NCBI GenBank assembly: GCA_019309045.1
Contig: JAFDGZ010000023.1
Coordinates: 1 to 54,594 of the forward strand
Length of the DNA stretch: 54,594 nt
Direction: 5' to 3'
From: Deltaproteobacteria bacterium
GTDB taxonomy: Bacteria; Desulfobacterota; Syntrophobacteria; BM002
Shown here: piece after piece, positions 13,740 through 35,086 of the stretch
Numbering within the stretch: position 1 is the first letter of the stretch
How the letters are laid out: every line of letters begins with the position of its first letter
Notes under the pieces: model-generated
Told to the model about the DNA's origin: nothing
The model's input: only the letters and a program-made list of their open reading frames with translations
Database searches by the model: none
Translations under genes and position numbers: made by a program

Positions 13740-14630
13740 TCACAACCACGACTCCGGCACATAGATGCGGTCTCCTGGCTTCAAGAGCACGTCTTTTTCT
13801 TTTCCATTCTTCACCTTGTCCAGGTTGATCTTCACTATCTCCTGAGTGCCGTCAGGCTCCCTGCGCGTAATGGTGCTGCGGTTCGGGGCTGCGTATTTAG
13901 CAAAGCCGCCGGCCAGAATACAGGCATCCAGGGCTGTGAGACCCTCCTGAAAGTCGTAGACACCCGGCCGGTTCACCTTGCCCAGAACATAAATCTTGTA
14001 CTGGGTGAGGTCTGAAAACGATGTGGGCGGAATATAGACCACATCTCCTGGCTGGAGTTCCACATTTCTTTCGGCAATGCCGAGATCTAGCAGCTCCCGC
14101 AGGTTGACCTTGATGGATTTTTTCTTCTGTACAAGTTCATTTATCTTGGTGTTGCTGTCGAGATCCTTCAGCGAACCACGAAGGATGTAGGCATAATTGC
14201 TGCGGTTTTCAGTGACTCCTCCGGCCTTGGCGATCAGCTCCAGCAATGTTGTGGTACTGCTGTCCAGGGGAAAGAGCCCGGACATCTTCACTGCTCCGGT
14301 AAGATAAACTCTTTTACTCTTGTAATCTCTGACACTGATGAGCACCTGCGGATTGACAAAATAATCCTCGGCCAGCGGTCTGCTAACTGTCTGCGTGAGT
14401 TCTGCAACAGACAGACCTTCTGCCTTGATTTCACCGAGGAATGGAAAATTGATGGTACCATTGGCTGATACAGTGAGATCAATTGCCTCCTGAGACTGGC
14501 CTCCTGCAAAAATATTGATGGAAAGCACATCGCCCGGGCCAATGATGTACGGCTTGTCTTGGGCTGACACAGCCGTAGTCGTGATAATCAACAGCAGCGA
14601 TACTGTTATTGAAATAATTCGCGATTTCAT
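13740..14630 (-). CDS. Wza-type polysaccharide export protein
   Basis: 296 residues. The signal peptide (about 1-23) ends TTAVSAQ, with no lipobox cysteine. The Poly_export domain follows (YIIGPGDVLSINIF, GTINFPFLGEIKAEGLSV, about 28-75) and then two SLBB-type modules (VYLTGAVKMSGLFPLDSSTT, IYVLGKVNRPGVYDFQEGLT). The end is LLKPGDRIYVPESWL. Proteins of this kind form the outer-membrane or periplasmic channel that receives polysaccharide from the Wzc-type partner encoded just upstream in transcription order. Lack of a lipidation site suggests it is not acylated like E. coli Wza, or works with the separate barrel protein at 15260-16495. Confidence 0.9.
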   Translation of the reverse strand: MKSRIISITVSLLLIITTTAVSAQDKPYIIGPGDVLSINIFAGGQSQEAIDLTVSANGTINFPFLGEIKAEGLSVAELTQTVSRPLAEDYFVNPQVLISVRDYKSKRVYLTGAVKMSGLFPLDSSTTTLLELIAKAGGVTENRSNYAYILRGSLKDLDSNTKINELVQKKKSIKVNLRELLDLGIAERNVELQPGDVVYIPPTSFSDLTQYKIYVLGKVNRPGVYDFQEGLTALDACILAGGFAKYAAPNRSTITRREPDGTQEIVKINLDKVKNGKEKDVLLKPGDRIYVPESWL

Positions 14631-15259
14631 GGCTCAAATCACTCCAACCTACTTGCTGCCAGGCAGTAAGCACAGGCACTGAGCGGCCAGTACGGCTCAC
14701 TGCCAAGGTTACGATGCCCGTTTCGTCTGTCGGCCACGGTTAACGGCTTTTCTTCGTTGCCGTAAACTGTCCACGGATATGGGCTTCGTGACCGTTGTCC
14801 CTTGACGACCTGGGTTATGGCTATCGTCATTTCAAGACATGTTGCAATGCCCATTCTTTTCGCGGCAAGATGCCGCTCCCACAGAAAGTGCAAAAGACCT
14901 TTTTATTTTTCGCTCCCTTGGTTGCTGGTCACGGTTAGAGAACCGTTCCTGCAGCTGATCTGCCAGTTTTACAGGGAACAACGTACTTTCAACCTCATGC
15001 CCTCCAATTCGAAATTCGCAATTCCAAATTAGAAATCTAGACACCGTAGCCGTGAGCCTTGCTCCTTTCCCCATAGCCGATAACTTCACCTTCATACTGA
15101 CCAACCCAGGCTAAAGCCTGCGGCTACCAACATATTGCCAACACATCTGGCGATAGCCGGTAACCCGGCACCTCCCAATTCCAAGTTCGCAATCCTGAAG
15201 GCGTTGCCGTGAGGCGTTGCCAATACAGGCTTCGTGACCGCTGCCCTGAGCCGTCCACA
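14631..15259. repeat. 629-base repeat mosaic
   Basis: No gene seen. Order: CAGGCAGTAAGCACAGGCAC tract (14660), head-to-head REP-like arms (about 14706-14800), GCGGCAAGATGCCGCTCCCA (about 14861), GGTTAGAGAACCGTTCCTGC (about 14934), an AT-rich tract of repeated ATTCGAAATTCGCAATTCCA type (about 15004-15040), the hairpin CCAGGCTAAAGCCTGCGG (about 15106-15123), and a truncated REP-like arm near 15220. Confidence 0.65.
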
Positions 15260-16495
15260 TTATTGTCTCGTAAAAAACTCCGTAATGTCGTACACGGTAG
15301 TCAACCGAAAAAACACCCTGTTTTCCTTGTAACGCCTGCCTCTTTCATTGGAACCGCGCTCCGTATAGTTGTATTCAACACTCAATTCAAAGATATCTCT
15401 CAAGAACCTGTAGCCCAGGCCGCCAAAACCGTTATAGGTATCGTCCTTACGCGGGCTGCCGATGTAGTCGCTGTTCTGGTAATAGCCGCCCAGATATGCT
15501 CGGATTTTTTCCAGGAAAATATGTTCAGCATACAGGTCAAATCTGTATGCTTCAAAGTACTGGTCCTCTGTGGTGAAATCTACGAAGTTACGTTCAAAGG
15601 AGACGTCCAGCTTCGAACGATCAGTAGCTCCGGTAAGAGTGGTGTGAAATACGAAGGAGTCCTGATTGCTGAGACCACTCTCATCGAATGTCCGCCGCTG
15701 GTAGCCTGCTCCCGCCTCACCGCTGAGATAGGTGTTGAATTCGTGTCTGAAGACGAGCTTGGCCTGGTAAGCATCATAGTCGCTCAACCCGGCGTCATAG
15801 GACCGCCTCCAGTATTGCTGTTCCAGGTCAAGGTGATTGGTGGAGTTGAGATTGTATGTCAGGGTCACAATGCCTCGATTTTCCCAGGAATCTCCCTGCC
15901 CTGGATCTGGATTCTTCCACTTCAGCCGCTCGTTGCGATAGCCAAGTGTAATGGCCCCTTTTTCGGCAAGGTCGTATTTGATTGACGGACTCACTCTGTT
16001 GCGCCAGTATTTCTTCCTGCTCACAATGTCACTGAACTGATCGGAGGAGGCAGGCTCCCGGGTGAGAAAGAACTCCTCTGTGAGCCCAAGTGTCAATCTA
16101 GAAGTGGGCCGATGGGCAGCTGAAAGCCCGAGGTTATGGCCGAGGTAATTCTGTCCCGAACCATTGACACTGCTCCTCTGGGAGTTATGCCAATAGTAAC
16201 CAAAGCCATAGTCCAGAGAGAGAAAACTGCGTTCTGTGAAGGCTTCCACATTGATACCGGGCGACACACTGGTTACCCAAAAGGTGGTTTTGTTTCGTTC
16301 AGCCCGATACCAGTTGTCATTGTATTCTTCTTCGAGAATTATCCGAGGCTTCACCTTCACGTCTGCAAGAGTGGGACCAACAACTTCTGAGGATTTAGCA
16401 TGGCCCACCTTCTTTCGTTCGGAGTTGCTTGTCGCTACCCTCTGGTTTTTCCCATCCTTCCCATTGCCCTTGTCCGACCAGACTACGAGGAACAA
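15260..16495 (-). CDS. Outer-membrane beta-barrel protein of the exopolysaccharide locus, N-terminus uncertain
   Basis: 411 residues from a TTG at 16495. From about residue 50 the protein is a run of alternating amphipathic strands rich in Tyr, Phe, Trp, Ser and Asn (for example RSFLSLDYGFGYYW, GIVTLTYNLNSTNHLDLEQQ, FELSVEYNYTE), ending FFRLTTVYDITEFFTRQ. This resembles the barrel proteins often coded next to Wza and Wzc homologues in Desulfobacterota. It probably provides the outer-membrane pore for export. No signal peptide is present in this frame and no ATG precedes the barrel. The frame is closed upstream by the stop codon of the PilZ gene only 18 bases away, so the N-terminus may be damaged or the start misjudged. 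Confidence 0.75.
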   Translation of the reverse strand: MFLVVWSDKGNGKDGKNQRVATSNSERKKVGHAKSSEVVGPTLADVKVKPRIILEEEYNDNWYRAERNKTTFWVTSVSPGINVEAFTERSFLSLDYGFGYYWHNSQRSSVNGSGQNYLGHNLGLSAAHRPTSRLTLGLTEEFFLTREPASSDQFSDIVSRKKYWRNRVSPSIKYDLAEKGAITLGYRNERLKWKNPDPGQGDSWENRGIVTLTYNLNSTNHLDLEQQYWRRSYDAGLSDYDAYQAKLVFRHEFNTYLSGEAGAGYQRRTFDESGLSNQDSFVFHTTLTGATDRSKLDVSFERNFVDFTTEDQYFEAYRFDLYAEHIFLEKIRAYLGGYYQNSDYIGSPRKDDTYNGFGGLGYRFLRDIFELSVEYNYTERGSNERGRRYKENRVFFRLTTVYDITEFFTRQ

Positions 16496-16513
16496 CTGAC
16501 TGCTGCCATCCGC

Positions 16514-16834
16514 TCAGTGGCTGTTCAGGCACATGATCTGATAGTCCTTGTCAAATCTGATTGCTATTCCGTCGGAGTTGGAGCGCTGCACTCTTCCCTT
16601 CACTCGTATTAACGAATGACACCCGGTGAGCTGCCGCAGCCGCTCATTTTCCACCGTGATGTCCAGATGAACCTCTGTACCCCGGGCTATCTGAACGCTG
16701 CCAGCAATGAAAGCCCCACCTGCCGAGATATCCCTGGTACGGAAATCGAACACCTGTTTCTGTACCGGCGATTTCACTTCGACTCGTGCGGGAAGACCCA
16801 AAGAAAACCTCTCATACTCTCGTCGCTCTTGCAT
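16514..16834 (-). CDS. Single-domain PilZ protein (probable c-di-GMP receptor)
   Basis: 106 residues covering one PilZ domain. The c-di-GMP-binding signature is complete: an RRxxxR-type motif in ERREYERFSLGL near the N-terminus and D-x-S-x-x-G as TRDISAGGAFI (about 33-43). The remainder is beta strands ending GIAIRFDKDYQIM. Proteins like this switch partner enzymes on or off when c-di-GMP rises. Located directly upstream of the export-barrel gene and within 20 bases of it, it is a good candidate for post-translational control of exopolysaccharide export. No diguanylate cyclase is in the window. Confidence 0.88.
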   Translation of the reverse strand: MQERREYERFSLGLPARVEVKSPVQKQVFDFRTRDISAGGAFIAGSVQIARGTEVHLDITVENERLRQLTGCHSLIRVKGRVQRSNSDGIAIRFDKDYQIMCLNSH

Positions 16835-17532
16835 TTTCTCAATCCATGTGAGCCTGCGCCCAATTAAAAATTACTGGTTCACGATCCGTACCATATTATG
16901 TAAACGCAACCGACCATATGGGTGCCGTGTTGAAGGTGACGCCTTCGGTTGCCGTTACCAGGCCAGTTGAGTCAGTAGGCACCAGGAAGTAAGCAGTAGG
17001 CAGCGGCGCTATACGCGCAGACGGCACAGGGTACATGTTTAGGGCACAGGGCTGAAGATTAACGACACGGCTACTCGTTTTTCCACAATGCCAAATCCCA
17101 TATCTCCTTCTACCTTGCCGTGTACCCTGGCCGATGCGGGCTTCGTTACCGTTGCCCCTGACGTTCCGTATCGCGGCAAGATGCCGCTCCCACAGTTTGA
17201 CCAGGCAGTAAGCACTAAGCACAATATAACTGGAGCACCTGATAGGGTCTTCACAATAGAGCTGGTCGCGGCTAGAGCTCCGGTCCTACCACATTGTTTC
17301 TGGCATCTGATTACTGATAACCAGCGGAGGCCTTTCAGCCTTCCTTGCTGCAGACTAACCCACAAAACCCAAAACTTGCAGTTATTAACTCCTATCCTGT
17401 TTGTTTTTGAGATAAAACACAATCGGGGAATGGTATGGTTTTTTTCGTATTTTTCCGTGGGGGGATGTCTAAGAAACCAGTAGGCAGATAGTATTAGGAA
17501 GAAAGGGAAGACTAGTACTTTCGTCTTATTCG
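16835..17532. repeat. 698-base gap: repeat mosaic
   Basis: No convincing gene. It includes an 'AGTCAGTAGGCACCAGGAAG' tract (about 16970), a REP-like arm CCGATGCGGGCTTCGTTACC (about 17131), CGCGGCAAGATGCCGCTCCC (about 17173) and CGCGGCTAGAGCTCCGGTCC (about 17267). The part nearest the regulator gene (about 17380-17530) looks non-repetitive and AT-rich and has no recognised signal. Confidence 0.55.
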
Positions 17533-18216
17533 CTAGAGGTTTTTGGCAGCCCAGAAAGCGGCCTGCAGACGGTTGGGTACTTTTATTTTCTTAAATATAT
17601 TATAGAGATGCGTCTTTACGGTGTGCGGACTTATGCAGAGTTTCTCAGCGATCTGTTCATTGGTGGCTCCTATAGCCACCAGGGCAAGTATCTCTTCCTG
17701 ACGAGGAGTGAGCAAAGTCAGCCCCTTTCTTGTGGGGTCGTGTCCGCTTTTACCCTCTGTAATACACTTTGCCATAATCCCCCTGGAGACCCACATTTCT
17801 CCCTCGAGCACCCTGCATACGCCCTTGACAAAGTGATCCGTGGGGTCATGTTGATAGATAAGCCCTCTGACGCCCTCCCACACACATCTTTCTTCATTTT
17901 CCAATTCAGAGCTGACATTGAAAAGAACCATCTCGTATCTGGTGGAATCCTGCGCGGCCAATGTTCTGAGGTCGGTGAGAAGTTGCTCCATATCTTTTCC
18001 CTGGGAATCCAGGAGCACCAGGGCATATTCTCCCTCCTCCTTTTCCGCTGCAATCACCTGAGAAATCTCTTTCTTGACCAGACAGCGCACTCCAGTTTCA
18101 CGCTTTATACATTGGGCTATGAGCTCATTCTGCACCGCACTGGGTCCTACCACATAGACACTCTTCGCCCTTGAAGAAGCAGAGCTTTTAGATTTTCGAG
18201 GGTCCTCTGATACCAT
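17533..18216 (-). CDS. LuxR/CsgD-type transcriptional regulator with degenerate receiver-like domain
   Basis: 227 residues. The N-terminal 140 residues resemble a response-regulator receiver (SVYVVGPSAVQNELIAQCIK, ALVLLDSQGKD, GVRGLIYQHDP), but the acidic pocket is incomplete and the phosphoryl Asp is uncertain, as in CsgD/VpsT-type regulators. The C-terminal HTH (about 165-220, LTPRQEEILALVAIGATNEQ then ISPHTVKTHLYNIFKKI) is a full GerE/LuxR domain. Sitting at the upstream edge of the exopolysaccharide genes, it probably controls them. Regulation by a small molecule or by c-di-GMP instead of phosphorylation is possible but not shown. Confidence 0.88.
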   Translation of the reverse strand: MVSEDPRKSKSSASSRAKSVYVVGPSAVQNELIAQCIKRETGVRCLVKKEISQVIAAEKEEGEYALVLLDSQGKDMEQLLTDLRTLAAQDSTRYEMVLFNVSSELENEERCVWEGVRGLIYQHDPTDHFVKGVCRVLEGEMWVSRGIMAKCITEGKSGHDPTRKGLTLLTPRQEEILALVAIGATNEQIAEKLCISPHTVKTHLYNIFKKIKVPNRLQAAFWAAKNL

Positions 18217-18695: not shown

Positions 18696-20963
18696 TTACT
18701 TCGTTCGTGCGATGAACACACCGTCCCATTCCCCCTCGGGAGGGCTCTTGCAGTAAATGAGACAGCGCTCTTTCATGACCCTGGCAGGCCCGTCCTCAGG
18801 AAGGATCTCCAGCACGCGTTCAAATTGGGTAAGAGCTTCCTGCCAGCGCTGCTGCCTGTAAAGTTCCAACCCCCGGGCAAAGTGAGCATAACCCTTCTTT
18901 TTTTCCGGTGGGAGGGAAGTACCGGCCTCGGCCAGCAGTTCATAAACTCGCACCGGCTGTTGCCTGCCCTTGACTCGCACCATGTCCACCTCACGGAGCT
19001 GAAAAGAATCGCCAATCAGATCTGCTGTGTTTTCACCTATTAGAATTTCCGTACTGTAGACCTTGTTCAGCCCCTCAAGACGGGAGCCAAGATTCACCTG
19101 ATCTCCCAGTGCCCCGTAGGCAAAGCGGTAGCGAGAGCCGATGTTGCCGATCAGCATGCGGCCAGAATTGACACCTGTACGGGCCGTCAAAGGAGGCCTG
19201 CCAATCTTGGTCCATTCCTCTCGCAGCCGATGCAGGGCATCCCGCATCGCCAGGGCAGCAGCGCACGCTCGCTGGGCATGGTCTTCCTGATCCAGGGGCG
19301 CCCCAAAAATGGCCATCAGCTCATCTCCCACGTATTCTTTGAGAGTACCCTGATAAGCGAAGACCTGTTCGGTCATCTCTGCGAAATAATCACTCAAAAT
19401 GCTAATCATCTCATGGGGTGCATAGCGCTCAGAGTAACTGGTGAATCCTGCCAGATCACTGAATAGTACAGTGAGCACCTTTTCTTCACCCCCAAGCTTC
19501 AGGCGACCAGGTTCCCTGAGCATTTCTTCGATCACTATCGGGGCCACATAGTGCCTGAATGCGCCCTTGATTTTCTTGCGTTCTCTCTCTTCCGTGAAGT
19601 AGTGATAGACAGTAAGGGCAAGATAAGTTACGGACAGAACAAACAGGGGATAGACTATATTCAGCCAGACGCCAGAGCGCACGAACAGCCATTGAGCAAT
19701 GGCGATATGACAGATAAAAAGCACTGAAGCAAGCAGCAGACCTTTGAGAGCACTCATTCTGGGGATGGCTATTGCTGTGATGAACCCGAGTACAATAATG
19801 GCAAACAAGTCGTAGACTTTCGACCATTTGGGTCTGGTGATGAAGTTTTGCGAGAAGATATTGTCAATAACCGTGGCATGAACTTCCACCCCGGGATACA
19901 GTGGACTGAAAGGAGTACTACGCAAATCATGAGTTCCCATAGCTGTAGCCCCTACCAGCACGATCTTGTCTTTAAAGGTGCCGGCAGCAAGCTTGCCATG
20001 GAGAATGTCGGTTATGGAGTAATGAGGAAAAGTCTTGGGCGGACCCAGATAGTTGATGAGCATCTGGCCGTTCTCGTCTGTGGGAATAAAACGGCGTCCC
20101 ATCTGGATGCCTTCCACTCCGTAAACAGCAACTTTGATCATCAGCTGGGGTTTATCGAGGTAAAACCAGGCACTCAGCAGAGAAAGGGGAGGAAAGGCTT
20201 CCTTGCCACACTGGATAACGAGAGGCAGCCAGCGCACCACCCCGTCGCGGTCAGTGGTTACATTGAAATATCCAGAAGCGGCTGCTTTGCTGGTAAATAT
20301 TTTCAGATTGCTCTCCGGTGCATAGGCTTTGATAAATGGTGAAACTCCCGTGTCCTGGCCTTCAAAAATAATGAGCGAGTACTTGGATGAGTTGATGCGG
20401 GCAAGCTGCTCTTTGATTTCTTTCTCGCCTATCTTATATCCCAGGCTGCCTTCGTCCATGTGAAAGAAATAGCCGAGGACCACCGAGGCGGCACAGTTGC
20501 CGATAGCCCTGGCCAGCAGCAGGTCATTATCTGCAGCCATCCTTGTTCGGGCTAAAAACTCAGACAGCAGATGATTCTTGATCTCTAGAGAGGCAACCTG
20601 TCTGTTCAATTCCCTGATCAAACTCAATTGCGAATTCTCGTCAGGCTCCAGGAAACCCACATCGAAACTGATGACCTTTGCTCCATCTTTGGAAAGGATA
20701 TTCAATAGATCAGCGAACTTGGAGCGCGGCCAGGGCCAGCGTCCTTCCACATCGAGACTTTTCTCATCTATCAGTGCCAGGACTACGGGCGCGGTGGGTT
20801 GCACAGAACCGCGGGAGAGAAAACGAAGATCGTAAGTTTTCAACTCGATCAAATCGAGAATAGGTATTCCCACTAGAAACGACAGCACAACCAGGACAGT
20901 GATACCCAGTGAAATGGAAAATGGATTAAGGCTGAATAATGATTTCAGGCGAAATTTCATCAC
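18696..20963 (-). CDS. CHASE2-domain class III nucleotide cyclase
   Basis: 755 residues. One N-terminal helix (about 15-37) precedes a large CHASE2 sensor (DLRFLSRG, DEKSLDVEGRWPWPRSKFAD, DKIVLVGATAMGTHDLRSTP, up to about 375). Three helices follow (about 380-455). The class III cyclase domain (about 490-660) has metal Asp residues in LFSDLAGFT and EYVGDELMAIFG, and the N/R pair in GDQVNLGSRLEG. The C-terminus is a TPR-like tail. It converts ATP or GTP to a cyclic nucleotide in response to an extracytoplasmic signal. The position normally holding the substrate-specifying Lys of adenylate cyclases appears to be Glu (KEYVGD rather than xKFIGD), so cGMP cannot be excluded. Three cyclic-nucleotide-binding domains are coded just upstream in the same direction. 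Confidence 0.92.
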   Translation of the reverse strand: MMKFRLKSLFSLNPFSISLGITVLVVLSFLVGIPILDLIELKTYDLRFLSRGSVQPTAPVVLALIDEKSLDVEGRWPWPRSKFADLLNILSKDGAKVISFDVGFLEPDENSQLSLIRELNRQVASLEIKNHLLSEFLARTRMAADNDLLLARAIGNCAASVVLGYFFHMDEGSLGYKIGEKEIKEQLARINSSKYSLIIFEGQDTGVSPFIKAYAPESNLKIFTSKAAASGYFNVTTDRDGVVRWLPLVIQCGKEAFPPLSLLSAWFYLDKPQLMIKVAVYGVEGIQMGRRFIPTDENGQMLINYLGPPKTFPHYSITDILHGKLAAGTFKDKIVLVGATAMGTHDLRSTPFSPLYPGVEVHATVIDNIFSQNFITRPKWSKVYDLFAIIVLGFITAIAIPRMSALKGLLLASVLFICHIAIAQWLFVRSGVWLNIVYPLFVLSVTYLALTVYHYFTEERERKKIKGAFRHYVAPIVIEEMLREPGRLKLGGEEKVLTVLFSDLAGFTSYSERYAPHEMISILSDYFAEMTEQVFAYQGTLKEYVGDELMAIFGAPLDQEDHAQRACAAALAMRDALHRLREEWTKIGRPPLTARTGVNSGRMLIGNIGSRYRFAYGALGDQVNLGSRLEGLNKVYSTEILIGENTADLIGDSFQLREVDMVRVKGRQQPVRVYELLAEAGTSLPPEKKKGYAHFARGLELYRQQRWQEALTQFERVLEILPEDGPARVMKERCLIYCKSPPEGEWDGVFIARTK

Positions 20964-21415
20964 GAATTGTCCTGGTTAAGTATCTTTCGTCGCGGCAAGG
21001 TGCCGCTTCCTCTGTCTGGGTTACGGCAACGGTTATGAAGCCCTTTTCGTTCGTCGGTAACGTCAGTCGGCGTTTTCTTCGTTGCCGATAACCGATAACC
21101 TCATTTTCTTGACTGGCCAACGCAGGCTAAAGCCTGCGACTACCAACATATTGCCCAGACATTTACCGAGAACCAACAAAAGCTCATCGGCTTAACAGCT
21201 TCCCCCTGTCCGCCGTCTTGTCCGATGACTTGTCCGCCGAAGCCGGAGGCGAAATCGGAAGTCAAAGGCGAAGGCGGAAGCCGGGAGATTGCTGGTCGCG
21301 GCTAGAGATCCGCTCCTACAGATGAATCGCCAGCGTTTTAGGTACAATGTAGCCTGAACCTCGCATCCTCCAATTCGAAATTCGAAATCTATGACCCGCA
21401 ACTCACAACCCTTTT
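20964..21415. repeat. 452-base repeat mosaic between cyclase and hydrogenase genes
   Basis: No gene seen. It holds CGCGGCAAGGTGCCGCTTCC (about 20991), a REP-like arm (about 21015-21055), the perfect hairpin CGCAGGCTAAAGCCTGCG (21121-21138), a GCCGAAGCCGGAGGCGAAAT tract (about 21235), a GGTCGCGGCTAGAGATCCGC hairpin (about 21294), and an ATTCGAAATTCGAAATC tract (about 21372). Confidence 0.6.
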
Positions 21416-22717
21416 TTAATGCGTTGCACAGCTCAGACACGGGTCGAATATACGAACGCAGCGGCCTATTAATCGTTCACCGGCTGGGGAAAGTCTGTCA
21501 TTGTGGAGGTGTTTCTGAGCCAGATCTTTTATCAGCAAATTGATGTAGGCATTATTGAACTGAGTAGCCACCAGAAGCCGCATTCGCTCCAGATAGCCAC
21601 GTTTGACTAGATAGCTGTGTACCAGTACGCCGCGGGGAGCCTCCAATACGCCAATGCCTTTACCGCTCACTTTGAAGTCAACATCCACCGCTGTCTGTTT
21701 GAGATCCACTTCCGTGAGAAGATGCTCAATTCGTTTGGCCGCCCAGAGGATCTCCGCCAACCGGCAAACATCGTAGCTTTCGAGATTGGCGGGCTCTTTT
21801 TCCTTGAAAGAAGCTACGATTTCCAGAGAAGCTATTTCCGGATCGTCCAGAAAGCCGCCTTCGAGATATTTTCTGGAAAACGGACCCACCAGTACCATGC
21901 CGGCAGGAAAGCCGAATGAGCGAAGATAGGGAAATTTGGCAAATGTCCATTCTGCCCTCATCTCGGCAACATTTTCCTCGAACTCTTCCCTGGCAAAGGT
22001 CGCCACAGTCCTGCCTTCCTTACTGTAGGCTCTGAAAACATCCTGCCCTTCGCGACCGTCGTATATCAGACAGAGGGCTTCCTGGTCAGGTGGCAGTTCG
22101 ATGCTGTCCTGGTCAAGCTGAATTTTTCCAGCCTCCACCAGCAGTGTTCTCGCCCGTACTTGCACCTCAGCTGCAATTTGTTGCACCTGCTCCAGCTCAC
22201 TCTCTGTAGGAGGTATGAGAAAACGTCCGATCCCCATGGCAACTGGATGCGAGGCGCGCTTGCCGAGCAGTTCCACTATTCTCTGTCCGGCCTTGCGCAG
22301 GGCGAACGCCTCTGTGGCAATCTCTGGATGAGTTTTCATGAGCTCGAAGACTCCTCCAGCTGCGCCAAGAAAGTCAGGAACCGTAAGGAAAAAATAGCTC
22401 AGGGCATGACTGCCTATCCATTCACCCAGGACGATGATCTCCCGCAGATTCTTTATTGAGGCCGGCACCTCCACTGAAAGTGCTTCTTCGATCGCCTTGA
22501 GGCTTGCGACCTGGTGAGAACTGCTGCACAAGCCACATACGCGGGATATGAGTTGCGGTACAAATTCCACCCGCCTTCCCTTGCAGAACCGTTCAAAGCC
22601 ACGAAAGTCTCCCACCAGAAAGCGGGCAATTTTGATCTCGCCTTCTTCCACCTCAATGAGGATATCTGCATTTCCTTCTACACGAGTTGCTTTCTCGAGA
22701 AGAATCTTCCTACTCAT
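21416..22717 (-). CDS. [NiFe]-hydrogenase large subunit, group 3c/Mvh-like, without C-terminal peptide
   Basis: 433 residues of the [NiFe]-hydrogenase large-subunit family, closest in style to the F420-non-reducing (MvhA) type. Both active-site motifs are present: RVCGLCSSSH (Cys61, Cys64) and DPCLSCATH (Cys427, Cys430). They should hold the Ni-Fe(CN)2CO centre. The protein ends exactly at the His of the last motif, so the C-terminal extension that maturation proteases normally remove is missing. A similar ending is reported for some regulatory and some membrane-bound hydrogenases. The gene overlaps the small-subunit gene by 4 bases (ATGA), so the subunits are made together. It probably oxidises or senses H2 in the cytoplasm. 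No Tat signal is present on either subunit. Confidence 0.93.
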   Translation of the reverse strand: MSRKILLEKATRVEGNADILIEVEEGEIKIARFLVGDFRGFERFCKGRRVEFVPQLISRVCGLCSSSHQVASLKAIEEALSVEVPASIKNLREIIVLGEWIGSHALSYFFLTVPDFLGAAGGVFELMKTHPEIATEAFALRKAGQRIVELLGKRASHPVAMGIGRFLIPPTESELEQVQQIAAEVQVRARTLLVEAGKIQLDQDSIELPPDQEALCLIYDGREGQDVFRAYSKEGRTVATFAREEFEENVAEMRAEWTFAKFPYLRSFGFPAGMVLVGPFSRKYLEGGFLDDPEIASLEIVASFKEKEPANLESYDVCRLAEILWAAKRIEHLLTEVDLKQTAVDVDFKVSGKGIGVLEAPRGVLVHSYLVKRGYLERMRLLVATQFNNAYINLLIKDLAQKHLHNDRLSPAGERLIGRCVRIFDPCLSCATH

Positions 22718-24567
22718 CGTATCCTCGATGGGTCCAGGACCATGTTGTGAGAGAAGTTCATGAGGCTGTAACCACAGCTGCGCAGGATTCTCATGACTGT
22801 CTTCAGCTCTTCTTCGTCATGGTGGCAACGTCTTCGTAAGGAACTCAGGATTATCTGCTCGAGGGTCTCTCCCTTTTTCATACGCTTCAGGACCTTCGCT
22901 GATGGTCCCCGGCATCCCCAGCAGGGCAGGCCATTGCTGGGGCATATGGCACCGCAGCCCCCTTTGGTCAGAAAACCCAGGCACAGAGAAGCACCCGATG
23001 AGAAACAGAGAGCAGGGTCCCAGTCCTGCCGAGGGTAGACGAACATGGCATCAGCCTCCACTTTCCTGGGCTTTCGGCTGCATTCGGCACAGACGATCTG
23101 CCGCAGCTTCAGACTTTGTTGCTCTCCTCTCAGTTCTTTTACGAGTTGGATAAGGTAATCTATCCGCGCGGGGCAGCCCGGCAAGTAATAATCAACCCGG
23201 ACAAAATCATCCAGCTTTCCAGCCCGACGAAGCAGGGCCATCTGGCTGCGTTGATAGGTTCCTCCAGCACCAGCTCTGGTACCAGATAGGTAATAGTCGA
23301 AAGGATCCTGAGTCTCGCCATAAGATGCTTCAACTATCTCTTCCAGCTCGAACATGTTGGCGAGACTGGGTATTCCCCCCTGGGCAGCGCAGGTGCCCCA
23401 GGCTACCAGGTAGTCGCTCTTGTATCTCACCTCTCGCAGCAGTTCCTCATCCTCTCGCATCCGCACCGCCCCATCTATTGCTACTATGTCTGCTTCAGAA
23501 ATCTCGCTCTGATCCATCAGCATCGGACAGTAGACGATGCGAACGCGTTCCAGCAACTCTCCCAGCTTTTGTTGATCTTCCAGGAGCACTGCCGCACCAC
23601 TACCGCAGGTAGAAAGCGACACCAATGCCATCCGGATTCGCTGCTCTTTTCGCAATGGTGGCAAAAGGCTCATCTGGACTATATCCACCCATTTCTCCGG
23701 ATCAGCCATGGCCTGATGGAGTCGGCGCAACCGCAGGGTTAGAACCTGCAACACATAGAGTGCAAGGCCGGGATCGCGTTTCACTTTATTGAAAAAGGCA
23801 CTTCGCATGATCGGCACCAACTGACAGCGCTCGGTCGCCACTGCGGATGCCGAGCGAGGTCGGCTGGTAAGAAGCGCCATCTCACCGAAAATATCTCCAC
23901 GCCCAAGGCGAGTCAGGAAACATCGAACACCTCTCTTTTCCTGATAAATCTCGACCGCACCCTGGGCGATGATATACATGGCCTCGCCTGGATCACCCTG
24001 GCGAAAAATATTCTCGTAAGAATCGAAGGTAACGCTTTCTGCACGGGCCAGTGCCTTGATGTCCAGAGGTGCACTCAGGGGAAGCTGCAGAAAGGTCTCG
24101 CTCCCGTCATTACCCCGGCCGCGCCTTTCTTCGGTAAACGACAGCTGGCACTCCATCTGTCTTCTTTTTTCGAGAGCCACTCGCAAAGATTCACTTTCTT
24201 CAACCTTCCGCTGCAAGAGTTTGCTCGTCTCCTCAATCCTCCTGCTCAAAGCCCTGAGCAGATGAATGGCCACCCCAGGGTCCTGACGCACCCTTTCGAG
24301 CAACGTCTCCCGGGTGAGGTAAAGCAGTCTGCCTGATTTTATGACAGTTACTGTGGCTGATCTCGGTTTTTCGTCAACCAGGGCCATTTCGCCGAAGAAA
24401 TCTCCTGCTTCCATGAGCCCCAGCACAACTTCCTGCCCCCCCTGAAGCTGGCTTACCTCCACCGCGCCGGACTGGATTATGTACATGGTGTCGCCCGGCT
24501 CCCCCTGACGACACACAACCTCTCCCTTTTCATAAAAAGTGCCGAATATTTCTTCGTTGTACGCCAT
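22714..24567 (-). CDS. Two cyclic-nucleotide-binding domains fused to a [NiFe]-hydrogenase small subunit
   Basis: 617 residues. The first cNBD (about 1-110) has the phosphate-binding cassette GDFFGEMAL...PRSATV and the second (about 170-285) has GDIFGEMALL...PRSASA. Both keep the Gly-Glu and Arg residues that bind cAMP or cGMP. Residues 312-617 form an MvhG/FrhG-type hydrogenase small subunit: STCGSGAAVLLED (319-331), AWGTCAAQGG (389-398), YYLPGCPARID (460-470), then LCLGFLTKGGCGAICPSNG and PCWGCRGPS (528-555) for further Fe-S clusters. The second Cys of the usual CxxC proximal-cluster motif is Gly324, so that [4Fe-4S] has lost a ligand. The fusion suggests that a cyclic nucleotide gates the hydrogenase, or that the hydrogenase acts as a sensor arm. 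I do not know a characterised example. Confidence 0.93.
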   Translation of the reverse strand: MAYNEEIFGTFYEKGEVVCRQGEPGDTMYIIQSGAVEVSQLQGGQEVVLGLMEAGDFFGEMALVDEKPRSATVTVIKSGRLLYLTRETLLERVRQDPGVAIHLLRALSRRIEETSKLLQRKVEESESLRVALEKRRQMECQLSFTEERRGRGNDGSETFLQLPLSAPLDIKALARAESVTFDSYENIFRQGDPGEAMYIIAQGAVEIYQEKRGVRCFLTRLGRGDIFGEMALLTSRPRSASAVATERCQLVPIMRSAFFNKVKRDPGLALYVLQVLTLRLRRLHQAMADPEKWVDIVQMSLLPPLRKEQRIRMALVSLSTCGSGAAVLLEDQQKLGELLERVRIVYCPMLMDQSEISEADIVAIDGAVRMREDEELLREVRYKSDYLVAWGTCAAQGGIPSLANMFELEEIVEASYGETQDPFDYYLSGTRAGAGGTYQRSQMALLRRAGKLDDFVRVDYYLPGCPARIDYLIQLVKELRGEQQSLKLRQIVCAECSRKPRKVEADAMFVYPRQDWDPALCFSSGASLCLGFLTKGGCGAICPSNGLPCWGCRGPSAKVLKRMKKGETLEQIILSSLRRRCHHDEEELKTVMRILRSCGYSLMNFSHNMVLDPSRIR

Positions 24568-25010
24568 GATGTCATTGCCTCACTGGTTGAGCACCGGTTG
24601 TGGACAATGGTTAACAGGCCCATATCTGGATAACGGTAAAGGCTAGGGCAACGGCCACGAAACCCGTATCGGTAAACGGCTCGCGGCAACGAAGAAAAAG
24701 CCAACCAACGTTACCGAATGCCGAAACGGGTTTCGTAACCCTGGCCGCAAACCGTGCCCCCAAAGCCTCACAACGCAGGCTAAAACCTGAGGCTACCAGC
24801 ATATTGCCAAGACGTCTACCTAGAGCTGATAACCCACTGCCTCCCAATTCGAAATTCGCAATTCCAAATTCGAATTCCTGAAGCCCTTGCCATGAGCCCT
24901 GCGCCCTGTGCCTAACGCCTTTCCCAATAACTGACAACCAATAACAGCTCACCAGGTTCCCAGCCTCCTAGCTTCCAAGTCCTCCAGTGACCAATAACCC
25001 AACTAACCCG
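24568..25010. repeat. 443-base repeat block with a clear head-to-head REP-like pair
   Basis: No gene seen. Arms at 24642-24671 (GGCAACGGCCACGAAACCCG and following) and 24718-24744 (CCGAAACGGGTTTCGTAACC and following) are the best-preserved inverted pair in the window. Next come a mutated copy of the hairpin repeat (24773-24791, AACGCAGGCTAAAACCTGAG), the AT-rich ATTCGAAATTCGCAATTCC tract (about 24846) and a GAGCCCTGCGCCCTGTGCC tract (about 24894). Confidence 0.65.
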
Positions 25011-27782
25011 TCAAAACGGTTTCCCACACACCTCACAGATGTGCTGCCGACAAATCCACTCCTCGGTCCTGACTGCCAGTCTTTCACCAAGGATCTTGGA
25101 AATGTTGAGAAATAGCCGCGAACTTATGTGTGGGAAAATCCTTCGGAGGCGCTGCAATGATTCCCAATCTATACAGAGGACCTCGGATTCATTTACTGCA
25201 ACCACATCAGCGGTGCGGCGCACCGCATTCACCAGGGCAATTTCGCCGAAGACATCACCAGGATGAAGCTCTTGCAATTGCTCTTTTCTGCCGTCTTTTC
25301 TATCCACTTCTGCCCTTGCAGTGCCATCCAGGAGCATATACATGACCCTCTCGAGCTCATTCTTGCGAATAATATACGAGCCGGGTGAAAATGTCTGGAC
25401 GTGAGAAACCAGCACAATTTTCTTCATTTGCCACGAACTCATACCCTCAAAGAGCGGCGACTTTTTGACCACACGCTCGCGGAGATCCAGGGTGAGCATA
25501 TCCCACAGAGTAATGAGACGTGTGGAGATCAACAGCACAGGCGTAAGAAACAAATCACCTATCAGGGCAAGCAGCATTACCAGAGCCGAAAGCACACCAA
25601 AGTAAATCACTGGCACAAAGTGAGAAAAGCTCAACAAGGCGAAGCCCACAGCCAGTGCCATGGAGGTTGTCATCACCGGCCTGATTTCGCTGTGAATAGA
25701 GGTCACCATAGCCTCTTCCTGGTCATTTAGTCTCTTCATTTCACTATTGTAGCGAACCATCAGATGAACAGTATCATCTACAGCGATGCCGATGGCTATA
25801 GCAGCAATCATGGCGGTGCCCGTATTCAGCGGGATGTTGGCCAGTCCCATGATTCCGAAGATGATAATGATAGGAAAAAGGTTGGGAATCAATGAGAGGA
25901 ACCCCGCCTTGAATCGCACAAAGAGGAAGCTCATCAAAATGAAGATGACCAGAAGCAGCAAAGACAGAGATAGGGCTTGCCCGGTGGCCATGGTATCTGC
26001 CGCCTTGTTTATGAGAATTCCCTCACTGGTGACAGTATAAGAGACTCCGGGCCCCAGCGTCTTGCTCATGAAGCTCTCCAGGTCCTTTACCACCCCTCTG
26101 AGCTCGTGCGAGGAGGAAATGTTGTGCCGGACAATAATATTGGTTTTGCTGTAGTCGGCCGAGACGTACCGTTCCAGGTCATACCGTTGAAAAAGGAGAA
26201 GGTATTGAGCTATGAGGTCGGCAGATTCAGGGATCACATAGGCCTCATTTTGTCCTCCTTTCATCTCGCGATTTACCAGGGCTATGTAATCAGCCAGAGA
26301 AAGTGTTGCATCAATCCGGCCACCATCCTGCAAGTATTTCTCTATGGCAAAGATCTTGTCGAGCTTCTCTGGAAGCTTGAACGCTCCTGCCAATCCCGCA
26401 TCCAGGGTAATAAAGAAGTTTTGCGCGCCGCTCATGTCCCGATGCAGCATTCTGCTCCTGACATTAATGGGAGAGTCCTGTTTGAAATAGCCCAACAGGT
26501 CATTATTCACCCTGATCTTGAGGCTGCCCATGCCAATGAGGTAGGCCCCGGCAAGGAGTCCCCAGAGCACCACACCTCTCCTTGTCCTTACCAGCCGCAC
26601 CACCACCGTTGCTAGCCGGTTGAAAAAGGAGTGACCTGCAGCATTAACCTTTACTCGCCTCTGTGCCGGCGACTTTCTGTCGCCAAAATATCGAAGGTAG
26701 ACTGGATCCACGGAGAGAGTTATCAAGAAATTTGCCGCCAGCCCAAAGGAGGCCACCAGGCCAAATTCTCGCAGCAGGGTTATCTTGTTGACGGCGATGG
26801 AAAGAAAGCCCAGGTAGGTTGTCACGGCAGTGAGCAAAATTGCCAGACCAACCTGGTGGGCCGTGTGTTCAATGGCAGCCATGCGCTCGTGGCCCGCCTC
26901 CAGACCGGCAAAATACTCAGAAACGATGTGCATGTCTTCAGTGGAGCCTATGACAATGATCAGAGACGGCACGATGACAGTGAGGACGTTTACCGGAATA
27001 TCCAGCAAGGCCATGAAGCCGAGAGTCCAGATGATGCTCAAGCTCGCAGTCAGGCAGGGAATTATGGCTCCGTTGACGCTGCGCAAACAGACCATCAGGA
27101 TGAGCAGCACTACCCCGATTGACAGAGGCACCAGGGTCAACTGGTCGCCAAGAATGAGTTCTGCCAGCTCAGTCCGCAGATAAGGCATCCCCAGCTGGAA
27201 GACCTCCTCTACCTGCCCCTTGAGGGGCTGGATGGCTGTTTCAATATCCGCAGTGATGCGTTTGTAATAATCAGTCGCACCGCTTTTCGGTTCGACCATG
27301 ATGTTTATGGCCATGCCCTGGCCATCCCTTGATATCAGGGTTTTATACAGCAACGGGTTGTGGACGGCATCCTGGCGAATCAGAGCCAGTTCTTCAGAAT
27401 CTTCTGGAATCCAGTCCAGTAGCGGCCCTGCAAAAATGACTCCGCCGTCGTTCTTGAGATTTACGGCATTGAAAAGGCTGTCTACCCTGGTGACGCCGGG
27501 AATATCCTGCAGAGCATAATAGACGGCTTGCACAGCCTGCAGCACTCCGGGAGTGAAAAGGTTCTTGTCACGGATATAGACAACCGTAACGTCGTCGCTG
27601 CCAAAAGTCTTCAGGGCATTCTGGTAGAGGTGCAGCTCCGGGTCGCCTTCAATCATCATACCCGAGGCTGAAGCATCTATCCTGGTGCGGAGGGCAAAAT
27701 ATCCAAAGAAAACGGTAATGGCCAGTATTATAGCCAGGACAAGCAAGCCATGGTCTCTGCACCATATCATAACCCTGGCCAT
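25011..27782 (-). CDS. RND/MMPL-family transporter with C-terminal cyclic-nucleotide-binding domain
   Basis: 923 residues. Two homologous halves, each with a membrane helix, a large periplasmic domain and a five-helix bundle; sterol-sensing/MMPL-like signatures include SLIIVIGSTEDMHIVSEYF (first half) and AIAIGIAVDDTVHLMVRYN (second half) with conserved acidic residues for proton use. The helices end near residue 770. A cNBD follows (about 785-895) with GDVFGEIALVNAVRRTADVV, keeping the Glu and an Arg for the cyclic phosphate. The last residues contain CRQHICEVCGKPF, a small Cys-rich tail that might bind metal. Such pumps usually move lipids or hydrophobic compounds, often with a LolA-like periplasmic partner, and one is coded next door. 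Control by the neighbouring cyclase is inferred. Confidence 0.92.
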   Translation of the reverse strand: MARVMIWCRDHGLLVLAIILAITVFFGYFALRTRIDASASGMMIEGDPELHLYQNALKTFGSDDVTVVYIRDKNLFTPGVLQAVQAVYYALQDIPGVTRVDSLFNAVNLKNDGGVIFAGPLLDWIPEDSEELALIRQDAVHNPLLYKTLISRDGQGMAINIMVEPKSGATDYYKRITADIETAIQPLKGQVEEVFQLGMPYLRTELAELILGDQLTLVPLSIGVVLLILMVCLRSVNGAIIPCLTASLSIIWTLGFMALLDIPVNVLTVIVPSLIIVIGSTEDMHIVSEYFAGLEAGHERMAAIEHTAHQVGLAILLTAVTTYLGFLSIAVNKITLLREFGLVASFGLAANFLITLSVDPVYLRYFGDRKSPAQRRVKVNAAGHSFFNRLATVVVRLVRTRRGVVLWGLLAGAYLIGMGSLKIRVNNDLLGYFKQDSPINVRSRMLHRDMSGAQNFFITLDAGLAGAFKLPEKLDKIFAIEKYLQDGGRIDATLSLADYIALVNREMKGGQNEAYVIPESADLIAQYLLLFQRYDLERYVSADYSKTNIIVRHNISSSHELRGVVKDLESFMSKTLGPGVSYTVTSEGILINKAADTMATGQALSLSLLLLVIFILMSFLFVRFKAGFLSLIPNLFPIIIIFGIMGLANIPLNTGTAMIAAIAIGIAVDDTVHLMVRYNSEMKRLNDQEEAMVTSIHSEIRPVMTTSMALAVGFALLSFSHFVPVIYFGVLSALVMLLALIGDLFLTPVLLISTRLITLWDMLTLDLRERVVKKSPLFEGMSSWQMKKIVLVSHVQTFSPGSYIIRKNELERVMYMLLDGTARAEVDRKDGRKEQLQELHPGDVFGEIALVNAVRRTADVVAVNESEVLCIDWESLQRLRRIFPHISSRLFLNISKILGERLAVRTEEWICRQHICEVCGKPF

Positions 27783-27971
27783 AAGGAGCCTCTCAGAAAG
27801 AATCGGTTGCCATTACAAGCGGCGGTATCAATGAAGGCTGTGGGCAAATTCACGACTATGGAAGAGGATGCTTGCTGTCATCCGCCCCGCCTTCCATATC
27901 TCCAGTTCCAGCCCGTTTCACCTGACAGGCCTTCCGAGATTATCATTGTGGCGTCAGGGCGGTTTTTTAAT

Positions 27972-28790
27972 TTACTTCTTTGTTTTGGCTTGTTTTACGT
28001 GCTTACCTTTCAGGATGAAATGGGTGGTAAACATTTCATTGGGCATATCTATATTGATCTTTCTTTCGAGAGATTTGAGAATGGTCTTGTGGCGGCGTTG
28101 GACGTTTTCCATAGTCCCCTGTTGGGGCCTCCATACTTCAGAGGTCACCTGCTCCCAGTCTGATCCCTGAAGTACTTTCAGTAACTTGCCGCGTTTATCA
28201 TAAAACTCGGCTTTTGGAGAAAAAAATGTGTCCTGCCGAACCCAGATGATCCGTTTACTGTAACCGCTGTCTCTCTTGGCTTCTCTGGTATTCGGCACTG
28301 CCTCCACAACAAAGCATGGTTTGCCGTCAATGATCTCATCCGGCAGACGGTAATAGGCGTGCATGCTCAAATCATCTGTGCGCATGTCTTCATAAGCAAA
28401 ATCAGTCCCCATAAAATAGGTTCGCTGATTTCCCTTGGCAATCCGCCGCAGATTCCCCAGGGCCGGCAGGTATAAGTACTGCTCATCTTCTTCATTCCTG
28501 TGCTGAATAAGCAACAGGGCTGTACCACGAACATCAGCGGGACTCAAGAATACCAGCAGGGTCCGATAAATATCCGGTTCTACTTCTTTGATATAACGGC
28601 AGACCTCTCTCTTTTCCTGGTTGCCCTGAGAGTCCACCAGTATCATTTCAAAAAGCTCTTGTTCCGTCCTGGTCTTCTGCCGCCGGCCCGCTTCTTCCAG
28701 AATCTGTCGCCCGCTCATTTCCACAGCCGGACTGAAGGCGGGAATACACAAGAGTCCTGTGAGGAGCAGCGCCACCATTCTCAACATCAT
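27972..28790 (-). CDS. Periplasmic LolA-like protein (outer membrane lipoprotein-sorting family)
   Basis: 272 residues with a signal peptide (about 1-22, MVALLLTGLLCIPAFSPAV). The mature part has the LolA/LppX-like pattern found beside RND/MMPL pumps: ILVDSQGNQEKREVCRYIKE, LLIQHRNEEDEQYLYLPALG, YEDMRTDDLSMHAYYRL and KRIIWVRQDTFFSPKAEFYD. These proteins carry lipids or lipoproteins through the periplasm in a curved beta sheet. It lies 190 bases upstream of the RND gene in transcription order and very likely works with it. The product carried is unknown. A tandem lysine-rich tail (KGKHVKQAKTKK) ends the protein. Confidence 0.87.
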   Translation of the reverse strand: MMLRMVALLLTGLLCIPAFSPAVEMSGRQILEEAGRRQKTRTEQELFEMILVDSQGNQEKREVCRYIKEVEPDIYRTLLVFLSPADVRGTALLLIQHRNEEDEQYLYLPALGNLRRIAKGNQRTYFMGTDFAYEDMRTDDLSMHAYYRLPDEIIDGKPCFVVEAVPNTREAKRDSGYSKRIIWVRQDTFFSPKAEFYDKRGKLLKVLQGSDWEQVTSEVWRPQQGTMENVQRRHKTILKSLERKINIDMPNEMFTTHFILKGKHVKQAKTKK

Positions 28791-32644: not shown

Positions 32645-33121
32645 TCATGGGGTGTTCTCTATATGAGTGCTCACCTCTTCCAGCACCAGCTCCAGAAGCT
32701 TCGGCATCTTCGCTGCTACAATCGGGCTCAGTTCCATGCCCCAACCGATCACTGCTGGTTCCATGCCGTAGATCACCGCAGGACCAATTTGATAGCCCAT
32801 CAATTCCGCCATCTTCATCAGATGAGCAAAATCCACCTGGTGTAGACTCAGGGGTTGCTCTTGATTTTCTTGCAGGTCTTCAGGCCGACAGCGGTATATG
32901 TCCCCAGGCTCACCGCCTGCTTTTATTACATCTATAATGATTACCCGGCGCGCCTTGTGCAGATGCGGCAGCAGGTCTAACGTGGAAGTACCGCCATCCA
33001 CTACCTCCACCTCTGCTGGGAGCTTGCGCCTCATCAGCTCCTGAACAGCATGAATGCCCACACCCTCGTCTGACATGAGAAGATTGCCAACACCAAGTAT
33101 GACGATTTTGCCTTCAAACAT
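32645..33121 (-). CDS. [NiFe]-hydrogenase maturation endopeptidase (HyaD/HybD/HycI family)
   Basis: 158 residues. The family marks are all present: VILGVGNLLMSDEGVGIHAV with the Ni-binding Glu (about 8-27), VEVVDGGTSTLDLLP with the Asp (about 39-53), and VIIIDVIKAGGEPG and HQVDF (about 60-98) with the His. The enzyme cuts the C-terminal peptide of the hydrogenase large subunit after Ni insertion. The nearby HysA has a 15-residue tail after DP-Sec-LGCAVH and is the obvious substrate. The MvhA-like protein at 21416 has no tail and should not need it. It is separated from hysA by repeat DNA and a terminator, so it is not in the same transcript. Confidence 0.92.
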   Translation of the reverse strand: MFEGKIVILGVGNLLMSDEGVGIHAVQELMRRKLPAEVEVVDGGTSTLDLLPHLHKARRVIIIDVIKAGGEPGDIYRCRPEDLQENQEQPLSLHQVDFAHLMKMAELMGYQIGPAVIYGMEPAVIGWGMELSPIVAAKMPKLLELVLEEVSTHIENTP

Positions 33122-33541: not shown

Positions 33542-35086
33542 TCAAGCAATCTTGAACTCGTAGCGCTTCTTGCTGTCAAGGTGCAGCACGTGCACCGCAC
33601 ATCCCAGTCACGGGTCAAAGGCGCGTACCACCCTCACCACGTTCACCGGATTCTTCGGGTCAGGAACAGGCGCTCCGATAAGGGCCTGCTCAATCGGTCC
33701 CGGAATGTCCTTGTCATCCCTGGGGCCAGCGTTCCAGAGCGTCGGTGAAACCACTTGATAGTTGTCTATCTTTTTGTCCTTGATAACGATCCAGTGAGTC
33801 ACCGAACCCCGGGGCGCTTCGTTCAGTCCCATGCCCTTCGATGAGGCTGGAATTGGCGCCTCTTTGTAAGTGGCAGCTCCTGGCTTGAGCTGCATAGCCC
33901 ACTCTATGCACTTGTCGACTATCAGGGCACACTCTTCGGCCCTGGCCGCATGGCGTCCCATTATGGAGAATGCCTTGTCGCCCAGAGCGCGGAATGGCAC
34001 CTCTTTGCTGGTGGAAACGCCGAGGAACCTCTTGGCATGATCGCTCACCGGTGGATTGGTGATCCACATTCTTGCCAGCGGGCCAACCTCGTGCGGTTTA
34101 CCGTTATACCGAGGTGCCTTGATGAAGGAGTAAGCGCCCGACTTGGGGTACATGGGCACAGTGCGACCTTCAAATGGGTGCAGGTTGGTGTAGTTTTCAA
34201 ACCAGGAATGTTTTACCTGCTCCCTGATAAGCATGGGATCTAATGGGTAGTCTTTCCCTTCTGTGTACACCCCACGTTTGAGAAGGTGAGTCTTGTCCTC
34301 GTTGTCCAGTGGAAAGACGCCGGTGGAAAGGAAATTCTTGCAGCCGGTACCTACTTCGAAAAGATCCATGTAGACTCCAGCCACCTGGTACACGGTTGGC
34401 ACATAGGTTTCGTGGACAAACTTTTGAATTTCTTTCATGCGCCATACATAGTCAACGATCATGTCTGCCGAAGGCTTCTCTGTTGTGCCGCCAACCACAA
34501 CACCCTGCACATGAGGCATCCTGCCGCCAAATATGGCCAGGGCCTCCTGAGCCTTCATCCTCATATCCAGCGCCTTCAGGTACTGCTTTACGGCTGCGTC
34601 ATTAACGGCTTTAGGCAGACGATACACATCAGGCCCGTCGTATCGTGGCACGAAGGGGGCGATTTCAGGCCCCTTGACGTAATCGAGAGCAGCCAGATGA
34701 TAGAAATGAAGGATATGGGACTGCACGTAGTTGGCGCCCAAGATGAGGTTGCGGATAATGCGGCCATTGGTGGGCGGGGTAACGCCGAAGGCATCATCCA
34801 GTGCCAGCACCGAAGCCTGGCAGTGACCGGTGGGACAGACGCCACAGATGCGCTGGCTGATCTGGCTGGCATCGCGCGGATCTCTCCCCTTGAGTATGAT
34901 TTCGAACCCTCTGAACATACCGCCGGTCGTCTTGGCATCGACTACTTTGCCGCCCGCCACCGTCACCTCCACTTTGAGATGCCCTTCGATGCGGGTTACC
35001 GGATCCACCACAATCTTTTGGGGCCCGGCAGCCGCTGCAGCTGGCGCAGCTTTCTTGCCGCCCGACGGAGTAAGACAGCTTGCCAT
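33542..35086 (-). CDS. hysA: Periplasmic [NiFeSe]-hydrogenase large subunit, selenocysteine at residue 493
   Basis: Read through the TGA at 33608-33610, the protein has 514 residues. The first active-site motif is RICGVCPTGH (Cys81, Cys84). The second is D-P-Sec-L-G-C-A-V-H (Sec493, Cys496), where Sec replaces the terminal Ni-ligand Cys. A 15-residue tail VLHLDSKKRYEFKIA follows, to be removed by the protease at 32645. A SECIS-like hairpin lies 17 bases after the TGA. Stopping at the TGA would delete an essential Ni ligand pair, so readthrough is far more likely than an early stop. The small subunit gene precedes it by 21 bases, and a terminator follows. [NiFeSe] enzymes are fast, fairly oxygen-tolerant H2-uptake enzymes in Desulfovibrio, exported with the Tat-bearing small subunit. 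The N-terminal 20 residues are Ala/Lys-rich. Confidence 0.94.
33580..33596 (-). promoter_or_regulatory. Candidate SECIS element in hysA
   Basis: In the minus direction GGTGCA-CGTGC-TGCACC forms a perfect 6-base-pair stem with a five-base loop. The loop starts 18 bases after the TGA and has G at its second position. Bacterial SECIS elements need a short upper stem, a G in the first two loop bases and about 16-37 bases of distance, and this one fits all three. Confidence 0.65.

Follow-up and report, generated by a model that had tools for sequence, protein, structure and literature searches.

Gene organization of the locus

The 54,594-bp stretch of DNA from a sulfate-reducer-like deltaproteobacterium analyzed here (contig JAFDGZ010000023.1, positions 1 to 54,594; below, the window) encodes a fusion protein in which two cyclic nucleotide-binding domains (cNBDs) are followed by the small subunit of a [NiFe] hydrogenase, together with the matching large subunit. 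A sequence-only reading of this DNA had placed the two genes in a run of five consecutive minus-strand genes, with a LolA-like protein and a pump ending in a cNBD on one side and a CHASE2 nucleotide cyclase on the other. Pfam searches recovered all five genes where that reading had put them and with the domains it had assigned (Table 1). Tight linkage is confined to the fusion and large-subunit genes, which share a 4-bp ATGA overlap. Non-coding gaps of 443 bp (to the pump gene) and 452 bp (to the cyclase gene) flank this pair, and inside each lies one copy of a dispersed palindromic repeat; a five-gene operon is therefore not evident. Promoter and terminator scans gave a signal close to the level of shuffled sequence, and an Rfam scan of the window matched no RNA family.

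Table 1. Features of the cNBD-hydrogenase locus, in window coordinates (aa, residues of the fusion protein)
Feature	Position	Strand	Basis
LolA-like outer-membrane lipoprotein-sorting protein	27972-28790	minus	LolA_like, E 5.9e-54
MMPL/RND exporter with C-terminal cNBD, 923 aa	25011-27782	minus	cNBD, E 1.4e-18
Fusion of two cNBDs and Oxidored_q6 small subunit, 617 aa	22714-24567	minus	Pfam cNMP_binding, E 2.2e-48; Oxidored_q6, E 8e-23
Fusion domains	cNBD 1, ~aa 11-95; cNBD 2, ~aa 177-265; MvhG-like small subunit, ~aa 310-560; C-terminal tail ending RIR
Degenerate proximal [4Fe-4S] motif	23594-23605	minus	TGC GGT AGT GGT = C-G-S-G, second Cys absent
ATGA overlap of fusion stop and large-subunit start	22714-22717	minus	sequence; same 4 bp in L055, L092, and L093
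[NiFe]-hydrogenase large subunit, 433 aa	21416-22717	minus	Pfam NiFeSe_Hases, E 5.6e-25
CHASE2 - class III nucleotide cyclase - TPR protein, 755 aa	18696-20963	minus	Pfam, E 4.5e-62 (CHASE2) and 5.7e-24 (cyclase)

The fusion defines a rare and deep-branching family

Two orthologues of the fusion turned up in a scan across 84,980 species genomes, one in the Desulfobulbaceae metagenome-assembled genome CSMAG_1653 (locus L054) and one in the deltaproteobacterial metagenome-assembled genome Ww484 (L055). Searching the relatives of these two genomes added two more, in genomes G699 (L092) and G672 (L093). The hosts of the four additional copies are apparently deltaproteobacterial. All five fusions are 614-621 residues long with the same domain order, and the other four are 41-47% identical to that of the window. 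The large-subunit gene overlaps the fusion gene by the same 4 bp in L055, L092, and L093; in the L054 genome the two genes are separated by a gap, and the large-subunit gene crosses a contig break, with its remainder read on another contig. About 1,500 genomes were searched and gave these five members with no sixth. One class had at least 3 family-bearing genomes among 258, and the class of the window had 1 among 56. When plasmids were searched by tblastn with the fusion as the query, no such protein was recovered, and three loci in which longer open frames had looked like fusions (L027, L031, and L032) were discarded, as their translations carry no cNBD.

Trees of the two subunits unite the five members in a single clade with full support (100/100), and the stem leading to it measures 1.4-1.6 changes per site. 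The clade falls on the group 3 side (100/100), away from HoxC and HoxG; HoxC is itself a long row in the large-subunit tree, where its own placement is unsure. Scores against the NCBIfam equivalog models are far below the cut-offs (197.9 versus 800 for VhuA and 161.5 versus 450 for VhuG). No gene for MvhD, Hdr, a diaphorase, or another electron acceptor was seen among the open reading frames flanking the five loci. An ordinary Mvh-Hdr hydrogenase was rejected on the family scores, the tree position, and the missing MvhD/HdrABC partners. The cNBD-hydrogenase family is thus real, old, and rare.

A different fusion was met in genome G462, where a 614-residue protein (L094:719-2563, minus strand) joins a Ser/Thr protein kinase domain to an MvhG-like small subunit and its gene adjoins genes for a large subunit and an Hdr-like protein. 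As judged from its sequence, this is a second, independent joining of a signaling domain to an MvhG-type subunit and shows that this subunit type joins such domains more than once.

Binding residues and metal-cluster ligands

According to the sequence-only reading, the three cNBDs of the window (two in the fusion and one in the pump) keep the Glu and Arg of the phosphate-binding cassette, and the motifs GEMAL...PRSAT, GEMAL...PRSAS, and GEIAL...RRTAD bear this out. The two pairs of the fusion (E60/R69 and E229/R238 in window numbering) are invariant across the five family members and hence in 10 of 10 cNBDs. In the predicted structure of the whole fusion, the confidence score (pLDDT) is mostly 70-90 in the cNBD half and ~25-60 in the hydrogenase half. 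The model was built from three sequences, and the hydrogenase half, poor because these were so few, was left unused for conclusions. The best Foldseek matches to the model were the paired cNBDs found in PKA regulatory subunits and in PKG. The small-subunit half has MvhG and VhuG as its top matches (best PDB sequence match 5odc_E, MvhG, E 6e-43), and the extra cysteines that MvhG carries near its C terminus are retained in all five fusions.

In the PDB, the large subunit is matched by HydL from 7t2r and by VhuA and MvhA (E 2e-63 to 5e-54). Its four Ni-Fe cysteines are kept (RVCGLC and DPCLSC), with equivalents in every member of the family. The L0 motif in the family is RxEGN (RVEGN in the window), where the other proteins compared have EGH, EGE, or, in HoxC, EGD. 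All five large subunits terminate at the conserved His (DPCL[S/T]CATH and then a stop codon) and so have no C-terminal maturation peptide. HoxC of the Cupriavidus necator H2 sensor, the positive control of this C-terminus survey, likewise ends at His, and the remaining large subunits whose sequence is complete through the stop codon extend 9-35 residues beyond that His. Among characterized hydrogenases, those lacking the maturation peptide are the H2-sensing groups 2b and 2d and of groups 4c, 4e, and 4g (PMC7294309). By this feature the large subunit reads as sensor-type.

Four MvhA-like large subunits from other genomes (L112, L113, L114, and L119, three of them from the class of the window) have frames that end right after ...VRAYDP. 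This is as expected if a selenocysteine (TGA) comes next, and they would then be selenium-containing forms of the group 3c hydrogenase.

Linkage to class III nucleotide cyclases

At three of the five loci (window, L055, and L092), the gene that comes next downstream in the same orientation encodes a class III cyclase, with a different input domain in each case (CHASE2, receiver, and GAF, respectively). The five genomes encode 4-6 class III cyclases apiece, and the chance of at least three cyclase-adjacent loci among five is ~4e-9 (3e-7 with a generous neighborhood). For at least two of the four loci outside the window it is 3e-6 (5e-5 with a generous neighborhood). The earlier proposal of a link between the cyclase and the cNBD-hydrogenase is therefore supported, since the fusion and its large subunit recur in four other genomes and a cyclase adjoins more of the loci than expected by chance. 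Other signaling genes lie nearby: a GAF-SpoIIE phosphatase upstream at L055, besides the cyclase, and a divergent CHASE2-Ser/Thr kinase with a PP2C phosphatase beside the fusion at L093.

Alignment to 2w01 and CyaB showed that the substrate-specifying pair of the window cyclase is Glu/Gly, as in the guanylate cyclase Cya2, whereas the L055 and L092 cyclases have the Lys/Thr pair of adenylate cyclases. An E488K change in Cya2 confers adenylate cyclase activity (PMC5995499). From these pairs, the product should be cGMP for the window cyclase and cAMP for the other two. The Ser or Thr that follows the cassette Arg in the cNBDs does not separate the cGMP from the cAMP cases.

Directly downstream of the window cyclase lies an exopolysaccharide locus (positions 1-18216) with genes for a Wzy-like protein, a Wzz/GNVR kinase with a DUF4388 insert, a Wza-like export protein, and a CsgD/VpsT-like LuxR regulator. 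The CHASE2 cyclase might serve this locus as well.

Proposed function and alternatives

In the reading that we favor, with a probability of about one-half, the products of the two genes would assemble into a cytoplasmic [NiFe] hydrogenase of group 3 type with the role of an H2 (redox) sensor responsive to cyclic nucleotides. Its basis in the sequence is that the tandem cNBDs have complete phosphate-binding cassettes, the hydrogenase core resembles MvhAG and keeps its Ni-Fe ligands, the large subunit is of the sensor type in lacking the maturation peptide, no gene for an electron-accepting subunit lies alongside, and class III cyclases recur as neighbors. The kinase and phosphatase genes near L055 and L093 and the kinase-MvhG fusion of G462 count in its favor as well. 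A signal from outside or inside the cell would reach the linked cyclase through its input domain (CHASE2, phospho-receiver, or GAF), and the cyclase would respond by making cGMP or cAMP, with cGMP the probable messenger in the window species. The nucleotide would bind both cNBDs and alter the assembly of the small and large subunits. In return, the hydrogenase core, on binding H2 or on reduction of its clusters, would influence how tightly the nucleotide binds or would act on a partner. The fusion protein would thereby integrate the H2 level with the second messenger, much as PKG or the XC_0249 effector joins a nucleotide to an enzyme domain. Nucleotide binding, the direction of control, and the output are inferred here and not read from the sequence. 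Stated more broadly, and with the same even balance of belief, the family would be a new deep-branching class of group 3 [NiFe] hydrogenases whose tandem cNBDs couple H2 chemistry and cyclic mononucleotides, in either direction, with cGMP or cAMP according to lineage.

Several observations weigh against a sensor. No cyclase gene adjoins the pair in L054 or L093; in the L054 genome the large-subunit gene converges on a gene read as sulfate adenylyltransferase-like. Co-transcription is not evident across intergenic distances of 198-452 bp. The family stands apart from the group 2b sensors in the trees, and the absent maturation peptide, being found also in catalytic group 4 enzymes, is no proof of sensing. 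One cluster ligand is missing in the window: the second cysteine of the proximal C-x-x-C pair, present in all ordinary small subunits compared, is replaced by glycine in this fusion alone (STCGSG versus STC[S/G]GC in the other four). Finally, the C-terminal domain is normally the output in cNBD enzymes, which favors gating of catalysis.

The close rival is accordingly a catalytic hydrogenase gated by cyclic nucleotides, an explanation that we regard as possible but that persuades us less than a sensor does. Such an enzyme would oxidize or produce H2 in metabolism, the cNBDs would switch catalysis or the exit of electrons, and the electrons would pass to ferredoxin or to an Hdr-type partner encoded elsewhere. 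Tandem cNBDs placed N-terminally before an enzyme are the layout of PKG, which is with the PKA regulatory subunit the best structural match; the extra MvhG cysteines, an outward electron path, are found in all five members, and all the Ni-Fe ligands are retained. Set against these points, no copy has an acceptor gene beside it, the maturation peptide of the ordinary group 3 enzymes read is absent, and the window copy is short of one proximal-cluster cysteine.

We think it unlikely that the cNBDs have a structural role or a different ligand, such as the NADP proposed for HoxI, with the cyclase linkage incidental. Some group 3b/3d operons do encode a separate protein of the cNBD fold (L097 and L099), and HoxI is thought to bind NADP, as stated in PMC12319191, which cites Burgdorf 2005. 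The Glu and Arg kept in 10 of 10 family cNBDs are not both kept in the L097 and L099 accessory proteins, and the cyclase linkage exceeds chance.

The missing proximal cysteine, overlooked in the sequence-only reading, leaves three of four ligands in the window small subunit and all four in the other members. It may reflect a genuine change in this lineage, incipient decay, or a miscalled base in the metagenome assembly. That the window copy is decaying, with the proximal cluster lost and the hydrogenase inactive here while the family functions elsewhere, is in our estimate improbable. The change is peculiar to the window, and its surroundings are rich in dispersed repeats; yet both frames are full length, every other cluster and Ni-Fe ligand is present, an altered cluster is possible at a three-cysteine site, and the base itself may be wrong.

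Least probable is a single five-gene system whose one cyclase controls both the hydrogenase and a lipid export pump: the genes are consecutive on one strand and the pump too has a cNBD that keeps Glu and Arg, but repeat-bearing gaps of 443-452 bp lie on either side of the hydrogenase pair and, among the genomes checked, only that of the window has both the cNBD-bearing pump and the fusion. A Pycsar anti-phage system was rejected, since the PADLOC models match only generic cyclase or cNBD stretches and there is no TIR or transmembrane effector.

Pump, LolA, and other features of the window

The sequence-only reading had joined the pump and LolA to the hydrogenase in one system. Neither gene lies near the fusion at the other loci, where tblastn searches with LolA and with the pump cNBD matched only the cNBDs of the fusion itself. 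Pumps with a cNBD occur in 5 of 11 same-family genomes checked, none of which carries the fusion, and in the other four fusion genomes every match to the pump stops before the cNBD. Outside the window, the cNBD-bearing pump and the fusion thus do not occur together in any genome checked, and on this basis the five-gene system was discarded. Of the co-occurrence that had been expected, the hydrogenase pair with a cyclase recurs, whereas the pump and LolA are not kept together with it. LolA is a partner of the pump, and both are neighbors outside the conserved module. The RND/MMPL pumps with a C-terminal cNBD in the same-family genomes (L124-L128) have frames of 1066-1083 residues versus 923 in the window.

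The dispersed palindromic repeat has the consensus TTGGCAATATGTTGGTAGCCGCAGGCTTTAGCCTGCGTTG (~40 bp when extended) and the core CAGGCTTTAGCCTG. Nine copies lie in the window, at positions 10387, 13584, 15107, 21123, 24776, 29132, 29726, 38245, and 49355, where fewer than one copy of the core is expected; the element resembles REP (repetitive extragenic palindromic) sequences.

The window also encodes a periplasmic [NiFeSe] hydrogenase, HysAB (33608-36025), whose reading frame has a TGA where selenocysteine belongs (DPULGCAVH); a HycI/HyaD-like protease gene lies downstream (32645-33121). The presence of HysAB ~9 kb from the fusion would suit a sensor, but it is a single case. Genes for NrfD, Hdr-like Fe-S, and nitrate-reductase-gamma-like proteins at 41584-46546 resemble those of the DsrMKJOP complex of sulfate reducers.

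Significance

Few hydrogenase groups are known to include H2 sensors, and these signal through histidine kinases or, in a putative case, through cyclic di-GMP (c-di-GMP). The family suggests a coupling of H2 sensing or use to second-messenger signaling in an undescribed manner. If the proposal is right, H2 metabolism and cAMP/cGMP signaling would meet in one protein, a group 3 hydrogenase that itself carries the receptors for cyclic nucleotides. A cofactor-coupled hydrogenase lineage would then have been converted into a signaling part, anaerobes could weigh H2 supply against other inputs, and a natural nucleotide-switchable hydrogenase would be at hand for engineering. Few receptors are known in bacterial cGMP signaling, so that binding of cGMP or cAMP by the fusion would count by itself. 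The module is tractable, with two genes, products predicted to be soluble, and clear binding-site residues.

Comparison with known systems

No description of a cNBD-hydrogenase fusion was found in the open-access literature, with subscription papers and preprints outside our reach. The closest relatives by sequence are the Hdr-linked group 3c enzymes MvhAG/VhuAG (PDB 5odc, 9sfi, and 9sw2). They provide the best match to the small subunit, including the cysteines of the extra C-terminal cluster, and their large subunits lie in the same half of the tree and share the Ni-Fe ligands. The fusion family differs in scoring below the equivalog cut-offs, in forming its own deep clade, in having two N-terminal cNBDs and EGN instead of EGH at L0, and in lacking both an MvhD/Hdr partner and the maturation peptide.

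The regulatory hydrogenases HoxBC/HupUV (group 2b) resemble the family in their large subunit without a maturation peptide and in their linkage to signaling proteins. They belong to a different group by the tree, and in the new family the signaling part sits on the small subunit and consists of domains for cyclic mononucleotides rather than a histidine kinase (2b) or a c-di-GMP cyclase (2c). HydDB describes group 2b as histidine-kinase-linked and group 2c as putative diguanylate-cyclase-linked sensors (PMC5037454). A coupling of H2 to a second messenger has been proposed for group 2c as well; by their HydDB description neither group belongs to group 3 or bears a cNBD (PMC5037454).

Proteins of the HoxI type also tie the cNBD fold to group 3 hydrogenases, the soluble enzymes of groups 3d and 3b. 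There the cNBD is a separate, single-domain protein with one binding residue missing: the Arg is absent from the C. necator gene product at the HoxI position (L097) and the Glu from the cNBD protein of a Rhodococcus group 3b operon (L099).

Among cyclic-nucleotide effectors, PKG and the PKA regulatory subunit, the best Foldseek and PDB matches to the cNBDs, likewise use tandem cNBDs to control an enzyme, although the output is a kinase and not a hydrogenase. The linkage of a class III cyclase gene to a cNBD-bearing enzyme has a counterpart in Xanthomonas, where the guanylate cyclase XC_0250 is encoded beside the cNBD-GGDEF effector XC_0249 and cGMP has been shown to act (PMC3770947). Unlike the fusion described here, XC_0249 has one cNBD, and its output is the synthesis of c-di-GMP.

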